This document shows, piece after piece, positions 40,643 to 47,010 of a stretch of 64,000 bases of DNA (position 1 is the stretch's first letter; each line of letters begins with the position of its first letter). Both the position numbers and the translations under genes were made by a program. The DNA is taken from positions 1 to 64,000 of the forward strand of contig DAIDEE010000061.1 in assembly GCA_027308685.1 (NCBI GenBank), written 5' to 3'. The notes beneath the pieces are model-generated. The model saw only the letters and a program-made list of their open reading frames with translations, did no database searches and had not been told where the DNA came from. The stretch comes from Acidocella sp. Lineage in GTDB: Bacteria; Pseudomonadota; Alphaproteobacteria; Acetobacterales; Acetobacteraceae.

Positions 40643-40719
40643 CGGAGCGTAGCGCAGCCTGGTAGCGCACCAGTCTGGGGGACTGGGGGCCGTGGGTTCG
40701 AATCCCGCCGCTCCGACCA
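40643..40719 (+). tRNA. tRNA-Pro (anticodon GGG)
   Basis: A 77-nt tRNA with encoded CCA. Acceptor CGGAGCG pairs with CGCTCCG, the D arm contains AGCCTGGTAGC, the anticodon stem CCAGT/ACTGG holds the loop CTGGGGG with anticodon GGG, and the T arm has GGTTCGAAT. All four stems form and the features fit bacterial proline tRNAs, which start with C rather than G. Confidence 0.96.
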
Positions 40720-40784: not shown

Positions 40785-40798
40785 TTGATATTCATCAA
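40785..40798. promoter_or_regulatory. FNR/FixK-type binding site upstream of the PHA/acyl-phosphate operon
   Basis: TTGAT-ATTC-ATCAA is a perfect copy of the FNR/FixK consensus, and the palindrome extends one more base pair on each side (ATTGAT...ATCAAT). It lies 55 nt before the ATG at 40854, nearly the same distance as the other box at 34977. Low-oxygen activation of the downstream operon is the expected meaning. Confidence 0.8.
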
Positions 40799-40853
40799 TG
40801 CAAAACATCGGCGTTGCGCTAAGTTGCGCATCTATTCTCCATAGGAGACCACC

Positions 40854-41105
40854 ATGTCCGCCAATGTCCCGCGCGAGCCAAATCTCTTCAGCACCTACCA
40901 GGATATGTTCCTGAGCCATCAAAAACTAATGCCCTACACCGGGCTGGCGCAAACCCTCACCCAGACCACCCGGCGTGTGATCGACGCTCAGATCGCTTAC
41001 GCCCAGACCATCATGACCGCGAATGCCGCGTTGCTTGAAGCCATGATGGCGCGCCCTGCCGCCGATGACATTGGCCCCAGCAAGGCCGCGAAACAGCCGG
41101 ACTGA
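40854..41105 (+). CDS. Small phasin-like protein
   Basis: An 83-residue, probably all-helical protein. The middle (about 12-66) forms a long amphipathic stretch rich in Ala, Gln and Thr: LAQTLTQTTRRVIDAQIAYAQTIMTANAALLEAMM, which suits phasin-like granule surface proteins, though it is shorter than classic phasins. The ATG has TAGGAGA upstream. It is the first gene behind a perfect FNR-type box, and fabI follows after 8 nt. No motif proves the function; genomic context with phaC is the main argument. Confidence 0.6.
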   Translation: MSANVPREPNLFSTYQDMFLSHQKLMPYTGLAQTLTQTTRRVIDAQIAYAQTIMTANAALLEAMMARPAADDIGPSKAAKQPD

Positions 41106-41113
41106 ACATCCGC

Positions 41114-41911
41114 GTGACGGATGTAAATCTGTTGCATGCAAGGCCGGTGATCGATCTCACCGGCAAGTTTGGCCTGATTCTAGGCATCGCCAACGACCAC
41201 AGCATCGCCGCCGGGTGCGCTCGCGCTTTTGCAGCGGCAGGTGCCACCCTGGCGGCCACCTACCTCAACGAAACGGCCAAACCCTTCGTGGCGCCTGTCA
41301 TTGCCGCCCTTAACTGCCCCATCTTCATGCCGTGCAACGTTCAAACCCCCGGCAACCTGGAAGCGGTATTTGAAAAAATGACCCAGGAATGGGGCAAGTT
41401 GGATTTCCTGCTGCACTCCATCGCCTTCGCGCCGCGCGAGGATTTACATGGCCGGGTGACCGATTGCTCGGCCGCCGGTTTTGCCGCCGCCATGGATGTC
41501 TCCTGCCATTCCTTTATCCGCGCCGCCAAACTCGCCGAGCCATTGATGCGCGATGGCGGCACGCTGCTGTCAGTCACATTTTACGGCTCGGAACGGGTGG
41601 TGGCGCACTACAATTTAATGGGCCCGGTCAAAGCCGCCCTGGAATCCACAGTGCGCTATATCGCCGCCGAACTCGGCCCGCAGGGCATCCGCGCCAACGC
41701 CATCTCCCCCGGTCCCATCCGCACCCGCGCCGCCAGCGGCATCGACCAGTTCGACGAATTGCTCGCCATCGCTGCCGCCCGGGCGCCGGAGCGGCAATTA
41801 TGCAGCATCGAGGATGTCGGCAGTCTGGCAGCGTTTCTGGTCGGTGACTCCGCACGTATGATCACCGGCACCATCATCCCCGTTGACGGCGGTCAGCATT
41901 TAATGGCGTGA
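41114..41911 (+). CDS. fabI: Enoyl-[acyl-carrier-protein] reductase, FabI family
   Basis: NAD(P)H-dependent enoyl reductase of 265 residues. The FabI variant Rossmann motif GLILGIANDHSIAAGCARAF, SIAFAPREDLHGR and the catalytic Tyr-x6-Lys in HYNLMGPVK are in place; the end PVDGGQHLMA is standard. GTG start at 41114. FabI copies in PHA/acetate-kinase clusters may serve redox balance rather than bulk lipid synthesis; that is inference. It sits between the phasin-like gene and phaC, with gaps of 8 and 15 nt. Confidence 0.93.
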   Translation: MTDVNLLHARPVIDLTGKFGLILGIANDHSIAAGCARAFAAAGATLAATYLNETAKPFVAPVIAALNCPIFMPCNVQTPGNLEAVFEKMTQEWGKLDFLLHSIAFAPREDLHGRVTDCSAAGFAAAMDVSCHSFIRAAKLAEPLMRDGGTLLSVTFYGSERVVAHYNLMGPVKAALESTVRYIAAELGPQGIRANAISPGPIRTRAASGIDQFDELLAIAAARAPERQLCSIEDVGSLAAFLVGDSARMITGTIIPVDGGQHLMA

Positions 41912-41926
41912 AGGAGCCTATCTCCC

Positions 41927-43627
41927 GTGACTGAAACCCCCGAAATTCCGGTGTTCGACCGTGCCCTGCACGCCGCCCAGGCCAAGCTAACCGGTGGCAT
42001 CTCGCCCGCCGCCATCAGCATCGCCTGGCTCGACTGGATGCTGCATCTGGCCAACCAGCCGGGCCGCCAAGCCGAACTCGTCAAACAAGCTGCCATGGAT
42101 GCCACCGCGTTATGGTGCCAGGCGCTCGGCCAGCCCACCACGCCGCTGCCGGTTACTGAGCAAGACCACCGCTTCACCCACCCCGGCTGGCAGGACCCAA
42201 AATTTGCCCTCGCCGCCCAGAGTTTTCTGCGTACCGAGCGCTGGTGGAAGCAAGCCACCACCGGCATCCCCGGTCTCTCGCAGCCGCATGAACGCAGCGT
42301 CGGGTTCATGGCCCGGCAGTTGCTCGATATCATGTCGCCCGCCAACATGCCGATGCTGAACCCCGAGGTGATCGAGGCCACCCGCGCCAGCAATGCCAGC
42401 AACCTCGCCAGCGGCGTGCGTAATTTCATGGACGATCTCAAAAATGCCAGCGGTGAGACCAAACTGCCACTCACACCCGGTAAGGATGTCGCCATCACAC
42501 CGGGTCAGGTGGTGTTTCGCAACGCGCTGATCGAATTGCTCCAGTACACGCCCACCACCGCAACCGTACACCCGGAGCCGATTCTCATCGTTCCTGCCTG
42601 GATCATGAAATATTACATTCTTGATTTGTCGCCGCAAAACTCGATGGTGCGCTATCTGGTGGCGCAGGGCTTCACGGTGTTCTGCATTTCATGGACCAAC
42701 CCCACAGCGGCGCTGCGCGATACCGGGCTTGATGATTACCGCAAACTTGGCGTGATGGCCGCCATCGACGCCGTCAGCGCCATTTGCAACAGCGCCAAAA
42801 TTCACGCCACCGGCTACTGCCTGGGCGGCACGCTTCTCAGCATCGCCGCCGCCGCCATGGCGCGCGACCATGATGAACGTCTGGCGAGCCTCACATTACT
42901 CGCCGCGCAAACCGATTTCACCGAAGCCGGCGAATTGCAACTTTTCATCACCGAAGCGCAACTGGCGTTTTTGGATGATGTGATGTGGTCCAAAGGTTAT
43001 CTGGATTCCTCGCAGATGGCCGGTGCCTTCCAGATGCTGCGCTCCAACGACCTCATCTGGTCACGCCTGGTACGGCGTTATTATCTGGGCGAAGCCGACC
43101 ATCCCAACGACATGATGTCCTGGAACATGGATGCCACCCGGATGCCGTACAAAATGCATTCCGAATATCTGCATAAATTATTTCTCGACAACGACCTTGC
43201 CGAAGGCCGCCTGCAAGCCGGCGGGCGGAAAATATCCGTCGCCGATATTCATACGCCATTCTTCGTCATCGGCACCGAGACCGACCATGTCGCGCCCTGG
43301 CATTCGGTCTATAAAATTCACCTGATGAATTCAGGCGACATTACGTTTGTGCTAACCTCCGGCGGGCATAATGCCGGGGTCGTCAGCGAACCCGGCCACC
43401 CGCACCGGCATTTCCACCTGCAGCATCGTCCACCGGAAGGCCAATACCGCGCCCCGGAGGATTGGCAGGCAGCAGCGCCACGCACTGAAGGCTCATGGTG
43501 GACGCCCTGGGTGGAATGGCTTGCCGCCCATTCAGCCCCGCCCTCCGCGCCGCCGGAAATGGGCAACGCCGAAGCCGGCTTCCCAGTGTTGGATGCCGCC
43601 CCCGGCCACTATAGTCTGCAACGTTGA
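41927..43627 (+). CDS. phaC: Class I poly(R)-hydroxyalkanoic acid synthase
   Basis: Polymerises (R)-3-hydroxyacyl-CoA into storage polyester. The 566-residue protein has the lipase-like box GYCLGG with the catalytic cysteine, PAWIMKYYILDLSPQNSMVRYLV, FCISWTNPTAALRDTGLDDY and the C-terminal SGGHNAGVVSEPG segment bearing the catalytic histidine. The N-terminal domain is typical of class I enzymes, which need no PhaE/R partner. GTG start at 41927. A MaoC-Pta fusion follows after 9 nt, able to provide or divert CoA substrates. Confidence 0.95.
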   Translation: MTETPEIPVFDRALHAAQAKLTGGISPAAISIAWLDWMLHLANQPGRQAELVKQAAMDATALWCQALGQPTTPLPVTEQDHRFTHPGWQDPKFALAAQSFLRTERWWKQATTGIPGLSQPHERSVGFMARQLLDIMSPANMPMLNPEVIEATRASNASNLASGVRNFMDDLKNASGETKLPLTPGKDVAITPGQVVFRNALIELLQYTPTTATVHPEPILIVPAWIMKYYILDLSPQNSMVRYLVAQGFTVFCISWTNPTAALRDTGLDDYRKLGVMAAIDAVSAICNSAKIHATGYCLGGTLLSIAAAAMARDHDERLASLTLLAAQTDFTEAGELQLFITEAQLAFLDDVMWSKGYLDSSQMAGAFQMLRSNDLIWSRLVRRYYLGEADHPNDMMSWNMDATRMPYKMHSEYLHKLFLDNDLAEGRLQAGGRKISVADIHTPFFVIGTETDHVAPWHSVYKIHLMNSGDITFVLTSGGHNAGVVSEPGHPHRHFHLQHRPPEGQYRAPEDWQAAAPRTEGSWWTPWVEWLAAHSAPPSAPPEMGNAEAGFPVLDAAPGHYSLQR

Positions 43628-43636
43628 GGGCTGACC

Positions 43637-45028
43637 ATGATGGATATGCCAGTGCAGCAAATTGAGAACCGCGTCTTCGATGATATCGCCATAGGTGACA
43701 CCGCCAGCCTCAGCCGCCGCGTCACCCAACAGGATATCGAATTATTTTCGATCATCTCCGGCGATATCAACCCCGCACATCTCGATGCCGAATACGCCGC
43801 CACCGACATGTTCCATCATATCATCAGCCAGGGCGTGCTAACCGCGGGTTTGATCTCCGCGGTGCTGGGCACCAAACTTCCTGGCCCCGGCACGATTTAT
43901 CTGGGGCAGGATCTACAATTCCGCGCCCCGGTCAGCCCCGGCGACACCATCACCGCCACCGTCACCGTCACCGAACGCATCCCCGAAAAACACCGGCTGA
44001 TTCTAGATTGTCACTGCACCAACCAGGATAATGCGGAAGTGCTGCGGGGCAAGGCCACGGTGCAGGCGCCCACCGAAAAAATCAGCCGTACCGCCATTGC
44101 ATTGCCCGAAGTGCGGCTGCTCCGCCATACCGGCTTCCGCAACCTGCTAACCCGCGCCTCGCAAGGCACAGCATTACGCACCGCCGTCGTGCATCCGTGC
44201 GATGAGAACTCGTTACGCGGCGCGGTAGAGGCCGCGATGGCTGGCCTTATCACCCCCATTCTGGTTGGCCCCGAGGCGAAAATCTGCACCGTGGCGGCTC
44301 AATATAATATCAACATCACCGGCCTGCGGATTGAGCCCACCCCGCACAGCCATGCCAGCGCCGCCCGCGCCGTTGCCCTGGTGCGCGCCGGTGACGCCAA
44401 GGCACTAATGAAAGGTGCCCTGCACACCGATGAATTTCTGCATGAGGTGATGCAGGCGCAAACCGGCCTGCGTACCGGCCGCCGCCTCAGCCATGCATAT
44501 GTCATGGACGTACCCGCCTACAACCGCCCCCTGCTGGTGACCGACGCCGCCATCAACATCGCGCCCACGCTTGAGGACAAACTCAGCATCGTCCAAAACG
44601 CCATCGATCTCGCCCACGTGCTCGGTATCACCACCCCGCGCGTCGCCATTCTGGCGGCGGTCGAAACCATCAACCCGGCCATGCAAGCCACACTTGACGC
44701 CGCCGCACTTTGTAAAATGGCCGAGCGCGGCCAGATCACCGGCGCCAGCCTTGATGGCCCACTGGCCTACGACAACGCCATCAGCCCCACCGCCGCGCTC
44801 GAGAAAAACATCACCTCACAGGTTGCTGGCCAAGCCGATATCCTGGTGGTGCCCAACATCGAAGCCGGCAATATTCTGGCCAAACAACTCACCTTCATGG
44901 CCGGGGCGGATGCCGCCGGAATTGTGCTCGGTGCCAGCGTTCCCATCATCCTCACCAGCCGCGCCGATGATGCCCACACCCGCCTTGCCTCCTGCGCCAT
45001 CGCCGTCATAATGGCCGCTCATGCCTGA
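43637..45028 (+). CDS. Bifunctional (R)-enoyl-CoA hydratase (MaoC)/phosphate acyltransferase fusion
   Basis: A 463-residue fusion. The N-terminal hotdog domain (about 1-150) has the hydratase signature FSIISGDINPAHLD with Asp43 and His48. The C-terminal domain (about 165-463) is a phosphate acetyl/butyryltransferase with the TDAAINIAPTLEDKLSIVQNA region and a closing GILVPNIEAGN-like motif (VVPNIEAGNILAKQL). It could hydrate crotonyl-CoA to (R)-3-hydroxybutyryl-CoA for PhaC, and convert acyl-CoA to acyl phosphate for AckA. Known fusion architecture in alphaproteobacteria. Its end overlaps ackA by 8 bp. Confidence 0.93.
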   Translation: MMDMPVQQIENRVFDDIAIGDTASLSRRVTQQDIELFSIISGDINPAHLDAEYAATDMFHHIISQGVLTAGLISAVLGTKLPGPGTIYLGQDLQFRAPVSPGDTITATVTVTERIPEKHRLILDCHCTNQDNAEVLRGKATVQAPTEKISRTAIALPEVRLLRHTGFRNLLTRASQGTALRTAVVHPCDENSLRGAVEAAMAGLITPILVGPEAKICTVAAQYNINITGLRIEPTPHSHASAARAVALVRAGDAKALMKGALHTDEFLHEVMQAQTGLRTGRRLSHAYVMDVPAYNRPLLVTDAAINIAPTLEDKLSIVQNAIDLAHVLGITTPRVAILAAVETINPAMQATLDAAALCKMAERGQITGASLDGPLAYDNAISPTAALEKNITSQVAGQADILVVPNIEAGNILAKQLTFMAGADAAGIVLGASVPIILTSRADDAHTRLASCAIAVIMAAHA

Positions 45029-46211
45029 AGCTATCCTCACGCTCAACGCCGGCTCCTCCAGCATCAAATTCGCTCTCTTCACATTCAACCACGCCCTCAG
45101 CAACATTGCCCGCGGCGAAATTGAGGGCATCGGCGAGACCCCGCATTTCGCCATTCACGGTCCACACTCCGAGCTGCTCCTGGAAAAAACCTGGCCGCAT
45201 GGTGAAACTCTCAGTCATGAGGATTTGCTCAGCCCGGTACTGGAATGGGTCGATCATCATCTGGGTGACATCAAATTGGCCGCCTGTGGGCACCGCATCG
45301 TCCATGGCGGCGATATTTTCACCGCTCCCACCCTGCTTGATGACGACGCTCTGGCCCGGCTTTCCACACTCGACCCGTTGGCCCCGCTGCATGAGCCGCA
45401 TAATCTCGCTGCCGTCAAAGCCGCCATGGTGCTGCGCCCCGGCCTGGCGCAAATTGGCTGTTTTGATACCAGCTTTCACAAATCCATGCCCGCTGTTGCC
45501 ACGCGCTTCGCCCTGCCGCGCAACCTGCGTGACCAGGGTGTACGCCGCTACGGCTTCCACGGCTTATCCTACGAATATATCGCCGCGCAATTGCGCCTCG
45601 CCGCACCCGATATCGCCTCCGGGCGCGTCATCGCCGCACATCTGGGTAATGGTGCCAGCGCCTGCGCCTTGCGGAACGGCCAGAGCATGGATTCCAGCAT
45701 GGGTTTCACCGCACTGGATGGCCTCATCATGGGCACGCGCACCGGCGCGCTCGATCCCGGCGTGCTGCTCTACCTCATGCAAGCGCACGGCATGAATGCT
45801 GATGAAATCACCAACATCGTCTATAAAAAATCCGGCCTCCTCGGTATCTCCGGCATCTCGCCCGACATGCGAGTGCTGCTGGCCTCGAACGCCCCTGAAG
45901 CCGCCGAGGCAGTGGAATCCTTCACCTATGCCGCCGCCCAGCACATCGCCGCCCTGGTGGTGCCTCTGGGTGGGCTGGATGGCCTGGTATTCACCGCCGG
46001 GATCGGCGAACATTCACCCGAAATCCGCGCCGCTATCTGTGCACGTCTGCAATGGCTCGGCATCGCCATCGACCCGCTGGCCAACGCCAAAAACGCGCTG
46101 GTCATTTCCAAAGCCACCTCCGCCGTCGAAATCATGGTCATCCCCACCAATGAGGAAGCGATGATCGCACGCCACTGTGTGACGCTGCTGGCGCAACACG
46201 CAATTGACTAG
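45021..46211 (+). CDS. ackA: Acetate (acyl) kinase
   Basis: A 396-residue acetokinase that makes ATP from acyl phosphate. LTLNAGSSSIKFALF is the phosphate-1 motif, GHRIVHGG, the catalytic RRYGFHGLSYEYIA region, HLGNGASACALRNGQSMDSSMGFTALDG and FTAGIGEHSPEIRAAIC are typical. Whether it prefers acetate, propionate or butyrate cannot be decided here. The start overlaps the Pta fusion, so acyl phosphate is probably made and used by a co-translated pair. The operon likely ends here; a 7-bp inverted repeat (GACTAGG/CCTAGTC) spans the stop region. Confidence 0.95.
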   Translation: MPEAILTLNAGSSSIKFALFTFNHALSNIARGEIEGIGETPHFAIHGPHSELLLEKTWPHGETLSHEDLLSPVLEWVDHHLGDIKLAACGHRIVHGGDIFTAPTLLDDDALARLSTLDPLAPLHEPHNLAAVKAAMVLRPGLAQIGCFDTSFHKSMPAVATRFALPRNLRDQGVRRYGFHGLSYEYIAAQLRLAAPDIASGRVIAAHLGNGASACALRNGQSMDSSMGFTALDGLIMGTRTGALDPGVLLYLMQAHGMNADEITNIVYKKSGLLGISGISPDMRVLLASNAPEAAEAVESFTYAAAQHIAALVVPLGGLDGLVFTAGIGEHSPEIRAAICARLQWLGIAIDPLANAKNALVISKATSAVEIMVIPTNEEAMIARHCVTLLAQHAID

Positions 46212-46269: not shown

Positions 46270-47010
46270 ATGATCAATGCTCTCACCGTGCGCGGCCTGT
46301 GCAAATCTTTTGCCAAGCCGATCATCAATCAGCTCGATCTCACCATCGCACCCGGCGAAATTTACGCCCTGCTGGGCCCGAATGGTGCCGGCAAAACCAC
46401 CACCCTGCGAATGATCGCCGGGCTGCTGAAACCCGATGCAGGCAGCATCGAGGTGTTCGGAACCGATGTCCTCACCGCGCCGCTCACAGCCAAAGCCATG
46501 ATGGCCTGGTTGCCAGACGAGCCGCTGCTATACGACAAACTCTCCGCCCTCGAATATCTCGAATTTGTTGCTGGTCTCTGGCAGGTTGAACCTGCCATTG
46601 CCGCCACCCGCGCTGAAACATTGCTCGAAACATTCGGCCTATGGCAGCACCGGCATCAACGCTGCGAGGGGTTCTCGCGTGGCATGAAGCAAAAAACTGT
46701 GCTCGCAGGCGCTCTAATTCATACACCGAAATTATTTATCCTGGATGAACCCTTAACCGGCCTAGACGCTGCCGCCGCCAAACTGGTGAAATCAATCCTC
46801 ACCCAATGCGCTGCCGAGGGTGCGGCCATCATCATCACCACCCATATCCTCGAAGTCGCCGAACGTCTCGCCACCCGCATCGGGATTCTCTCGGGCGGTA
46901 ATCTGCTGGCGCAAGGTAGTTTTGCCGAATTGCAAACCGCCGCCGGACAACATGCCGACACCAGCCTGGAAGATGTGTTCCTGCACCTCACCACCCGCGC
47001 CGATGTTTAA
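46270..47010 (+). CDS. ABC transporter ATP-binding protein (ABC-2 type)
   Basis: A 246-residue ATPase. Walker A is GPNGAGKTT, the signature loop is the shortened FSRGMKQK typical of ABC-2/drug-type exporters, and Walker B is LFILDEPLTGLD. The C-terminus (TSLEDVFLHLTTR) is characteristic of exporters such as those for multidrug or Na+. It overlaps the permease gene start by 8 bp, so the pair makes one exporter. The substrate is unknown. It lies 58 bp after ackA, possibly outside that operon. Confidence 0.92.
   Translation: MINALTVRGLCKSFAKPIINQLDLTIAPGEIYALLGPNGAGKTTTLRMIAGLLKPDAGSIEVFGTDVLTAPLTAKAMMAWLPDEPLLYDKLSALEYLEFVAGLWQVEPAIAATRAETLLETFGLWQHRHQRCEGFSRGMKQKTVLAGALIHTPKLFILDEPLTGLDAAAAKLVKSILTQCAAEGAAIIITTHILEVAERLATRIGILSGGNLLAQGSFAELQTAAGQHADTSLEDVFLHLTTRADV

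Follow-up and report, generated by a model that had tools for sequence, protein, structure and literature searches.

A putative FNR-controlled operon of phaC, fabI, fused phaJ-ptb and ackA genes in Acidocella sp.

We report here that a tight run of five genes in Acidocella sp. is preceded by a perfect FNR-type box, and comparison with related genomes gives good support to the prediction that an FNR-type regulator induces this operon when oxygen is low. The box, at positions 40785-40798, is a TTGAT-N4-ATCAA palindrome (TTGATATTCATCAA) and is the sole perfect match in the window, i.e., in the whole stretch of 64,000 nt which was analysed. It stands 55 nt before the first ATG (40854), with its centre 62 nt before this codon, which is a distance compatible with a promoter. 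A preliminary description had placed a perfect FNR/FixK box 55 nt ahead of the first gene, and rereading of the sequence together with a motif scan of the window showed this to be exact to the base. The tight spacing of the five genes described there, with gaps of 8, 15 and 9 nt followed by an overlap of 8 nt, was likewise found in the list of open reading frames. The nearest named genomes are those of Acidocella, with 94% identity in the fused protein. The elements of the operon are the following.

40820..40825, + strand: candidate -10 element TAAGTT, 21 nt past the box, resembling a class II FNR promoter
40854..41105, + strand: small protein of 83 aa, phasin-like by size and position only (profile searches, neighbours in relatives)
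41114..41911, + strand: FabI-type enoyl reductase (NF005717/PRK07533), with a GTG start and the Y-x6-K motif kept
41927..43627, + strand: PhaC paralog of the operon clade, with a GTG start and the GYCLGG, TDH and GHNAG motifs kept
43637..45028, + strand: fused PhaJ-like (R)-enoyl-CoA hydratase and Ptb-like phosphotransacylase (NF006045/PRK08190; profiles, structure matches)
45021..46211, + strand: acetate/propionate-family kinase AckA, overlapping the preceding gene by 8 nt

A tRNA-Pro gene occupies 40643-40719, closely upstream of the box region. At the place of the putative -10 element TAAGTT the sister locus L023 has TACACT, and a promoter pattern scan found no standard sigma-70 promoter around 40820..40825; the yield of the terminator and promoter pattern scans was not above that of shuffles. 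We disregarded a weak inverted repeat at 40815-40830, since the sister species has not retained it. Extension of the operon into the ABC transporter gene at 46270, 58 nt past ackA, was left out since a high-identity neighbour is found only in Acidocella loci.

In the window taken by itself, one-mismatch boxes are not informative: four were found against 1.62 expected, a number reached in 9 of 100 shuffles. Scanning of the whole assembly (2.86 Mb) identified 13 perfect TTGAT-N4-ATCAA sites, while five composition-matched control palindromes, three of which were motifs read backwards, gave 0, 0, 3, 1, and 0 sites in the same genome. Reading of the surroundings showed that eight of the 13 stand just upstream of genes, namely this operon, cydA, narK followed by narG, a hydrogenase small subunit gene, ompW, an Orn/Lys/Arg decarboxylase gene divergent from that of an amino-acid permease (antiporter), and the genes of a Rieske protein and of an LTXXQ protein. 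Judged by these genes the box set is a predicted classical FNR regulon. Of the other five perfect boxes three fall within long open reading frames and one in a terminator-like inverted repeat, the last being unassigned. The box at L006:2552-2565 (G000:C8) is located between the hydrogenase small-subunit gene and an open reading frame of 204 aa (L006:2581-3195), and suggests low-oxygen control of an uptake-type hydrogenase. The perfect palindrome at L010:2593-2606 (G000:C16:116092) lies inside the long inverted repeat AAAACAGGGACTTGATTTACATCAAGTCCCTGTTTT between two open reading frames of the same strand and is more likely to be a terminator than an FNR site.

Profile searches found two strong HTH_Crp_2 matches in the genome. 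The FNR-family protein encoded at L012:3405-4166 (- strand) carries the sequence CADCGARHHGMC with a C-x2-C-x7-C pattern, which we take to be the Fe-S cluster ligands of FnrL-type proteins, a later Cys, and the helix ETVSRS (E-x2-S-R). Its best NCBIfam model is FnrL, with a score of 162.5 bits that is below the equivalog cut-off of 300, and its best PDB matches are FixK2 and FNR. The gene is part of a hemN-fnrL-ompW cluster in which ompW is preceded by a perfect box (L012:3322-3335); fnrL itself has a one-mismatch box (TTGATTTAAGTCAA) upstream of L012:4166, which suggests autoregulation. The preliminary description had raised the question of whether the genome has an FNR/FixK gene, and by Cys pattern, recognition helix and NCBIfam match a gene of FnrL type is present.

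The conservation of the box was addressed in relatives carrying the operon, a comparison which had also been proposed earlier, and the box was found in most of the close ones. In the sister Acidocella locus L023 it reads TTGATCTTGGTCAA, i.e., TCACCAAAGATTATTGAT-N4-RTCAATGCAAAACAT, with the same 55-nt gap, and in the alignment it lies inside a conserved block, the stretch just upstream of which has drifted. Another species of the genus (G068) has only a two-mismatch box, TTGACGGAGGTCAA, in the same place before the same genes. When distinct clusters with the fused gene were counted, with up to one mismatch allowed and 1 kb of upstream sequence considered, a box was present before 16 of the 23 clusters bearing phaC, eight of these boxes being perfect (19 permuted motifs average 0.1). 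Clusters without phaC had a box in only 6 of 59 cases; the difference (Fisher P = 6e-7, window left out) also appeared within the family, with 9/13 against 2/18 (P = 0.0017), although both P values overstate the effect because the genomes are related to each other and not independent. It should be noted that among the 23 and 59 clusters there are loci from distant Burkholderiales, Competibacter, and Accumulibacter, which are mostly box-free. These counts support an association between FNR-type low-oxygen control and those phaC-fabI-(phaJ-ptb)-ackA clusters that carry phaC. At one mismatch the box was absent from L155, L165, and L169. All 29 family genomes searched have a relative of the FNR family and only some have a close one, so that a missing box may in part be due to another regulator. 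In Pseudoduganella (L033:7933-11459) a one-mismatch box precedes fabI and a fused phaJ-ptb gene; an apparent stress-protein gene comes next, and neither phaC nor ackA was found nearby.

The earlier gene names fabI, phaC, and ackA hold at the family level, while Pta is better replaced by a Ptb-like name and the phasin is without profile support. FabI scores 416.3 bits against NF005717 (cut-off 337), and a second strong FabI-like match is present in the genome at C73. AckA scores 356.7 bits against TIGR00016 (cut-off 293.4) and is the only acetate kinase of the genome. The MaoC-Pta fusion of the preliminary description is indeed a fusion, the protein scoring 726.2 bits against NF006045/PRK08190 (cut-off 282) with both domains covered, but its halves are PhaJ-like and Ptb-like. 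The N-terminal half matches the (R)-specific enoyl-CoA hydratase 5cpg and PhaJ 1iq6, with SGDINPAHLD aligned to SGDRNPVHLD. For the C-terminal half the nearest solved structure is the phosphate butyryltransferase 7vg9 (235 bits), against about 62 bits for acetyl-specific Pta. In profile searches the fused protein reaches 70.9 bits with acetyl-specific Pta (TIGR00651, cut-off 311.2) and 321.3 bits with phosphate butyryltransferase (TIGR02706, cut-off 410.5). By these scores the phosphotransacylase domain is assigned as Ptb-like, of the butyryl and not the acetyl type, short of proven membership in TIGR02706. A second, free-standing Ptb-like phosphotransacylase gene at L120:1243-2184 (G000:C31) has no kinase gene of its own and adjoins genes for an apparent aldehyde dehydrogenase and an IclR-like regulator. 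The 83-aa protein, previously called phasin-like, matched no phasin profile, with no Pfam family at E<=1 and no NCBIfam model at E<=0.01; recognisable homologues occupy the same place in L023, L025, and L152, and a more doubtful one in L153.

PhaC_N (PF07167) and the Cys-Asp-His motifs place the operon PhaC in the PHA synthase superfamily. Against the class I model TIGR01838 it scores 508.5 bits, below the cut-off of 622.65, whereas the PhaC at C21 of the same genome scores 779.7 bits and is thus the predicted bona fide class I enzyme. In a tree of cluster PhaCs and main PhaCs, all cluster PhaCs form one clade (100/100 support), to which the main PhaCs of these genomes do not belong. The catalytic motifs are intact across the operon clade, where nearly all members, including this one, have GHNAG in place of the GHIAG of the main clade. 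Given its class I score, the operon PhaC is an uncertain polymerase.

We consider it rather probable that this is an operon of the FnrL regulon encoding a low-oxygen acyl-CoA branch beside the PHA granule, which would dispose of NADH and provide ATP. When oxygen falls, Fe-S FnrL would bind the box at 40785-40798 and activate a class II promoter with a start near 40833, with expression of all five genes. The PhaJ domain would interconvert (R)-3-hydroxyacyl-CoA and enoyl-CoA, FabI would reduce enoyl-CoA with NADH to acyl-CoA, and the Ptb domain with AckA would convert acyl-CoA through acyl phosphate to the acid and ATP; PhaC and the 83-aa protein would link this branch to the pool of polymer. 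With respiration limited, the outcome would be disposal of NADH and a gain of ATP at the substrate level, and such an enzyme line would suit low oxygen because it uses NADH and gives ATP. Substrates, direction of flux and chain length are inferred at the family level. For FabI, ACP thioesters may be the substrate, which would count against the acyl-CoA branch. Of the low-oxygen purpose proposed earlier, two parts agree with the families found, namely the reduction of enoyl groups by FabI and the gain of ATP from acyl phosphate, here with a phosphotransacylase of butyryl in place of acetyl type; the polymer as electron sink is uncertain, since the operon PhaC falls below the class I cut-off in a separate clade and is not the main PHA synthase.

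A more tentative proposal is fermentation of the PHA pool under an FNR switch, in which (R)-3-hydroxybutyryl-CoA would pass through crotonyl-CoA (PhaJ domain), butyryl-CoA (FabI on CoA esters with NADH), and butyryl phosphate (Ptb domain) to butyrate and ATP (AckA). If true, butyrate would be formed without Bcd/Etf, by a route widespread in Proteobacteria for which the PhaC2 clade would provide the partner on the granule side; a literature search for a butyrate route via FabI and Ptb found nothing relevant.

Rather unlikely is an FNR-controlled operon mainly for PHB storage, close to the view of the preliminary description, with PhaC polymerising 3-hydroxybutyryl-CoA as a low-oxygen electron sink and FabI, PhaJ-Ptb, and AckA merely tuning the supply of acyl-CoA. 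The catalytic motifs kept across the clade would fit storage, as would the findings that all three PHA synthase genes of Herbaspirillum seropedicae need Fnr and that loss of phaC1 raises NADH/NAD+ (PMC5862806). The same study, however, reports equivalent low-oxygen PhaC2 paralogs without an apparent role in PHB synthesis (PMC5862806), and here another gene encodes the bona fide class I PhaC, the operon PhaC belonging to the separate clade.

We regard as improbable an FNR-controlled operation in the uptake direction, in which CoA esters would be made by AckA and Ptb from short-chain acids (acetate, propionate, butyrate, 3-hydroxybutyrate) and stored through PhaJ and PhaC, shielding an acidophile from organic acids. 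Both the AckA and the Ptb reactions are reversible, as this would need. Activation of propionate by AckA/Pta into PHA is proposed in work on Cobetia (PMC8686332). Uptake would, however, cost ATP under low oxygen and leave FabI without a clear role. A chance match of the box, with the operon under other control, e.g., of phosphate or carbon status, is very improbable: a pta-ackA-fabI operon of S. meliloti is PhoB-controlled and the one-mismatch count in the window is not unusual, but the genome-wide excess, the position, and the conservation across many relatives led us to reject a chance origin of the box at 40785-40798 on genome-wide and cross-species controls.

The wiring of the FNR-type operon preferred here is already known in other bacteria; what is added is the comparative evidence for the box and a corrected enzyme assignment, and a testable role is suggested for PhaC2 paralogs, which in the model species have no clear function. 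The low-oxygen-activated (lxa) locus of Burkholderia cenocepacia, which overlaps PHB genes, is alike in its induction at low oxygen, as predicted here for the operon. In Herbaspirillum seropedicae ChIP-seq and RNA-seq showed that Fnr1 directly controls dksA-phaC2-fabI-Hsero_2407 (PMC5934665), which similarly places a PhaC2 paralog and fabI under an FNR protein but opens with dksA and not with a small phasin-like gene. The order phaC1-fabI-bi-pta-ackA, with the same four enzyme genes together, has been published for Halomonas/Cobetia, and FNR control is not reported in the accessible part of that work (PMC8686332). In Bradyrhizobium diazoefficiens a second phaC (phaC2, bll6073) is likewise under a regulator of the CRP/FNR family and is induced in microoxia (PMC10888616, PMC6515984), but there the regulator is FixK2 and pta and ackA are located elsewhere (blr3457, blr3458).
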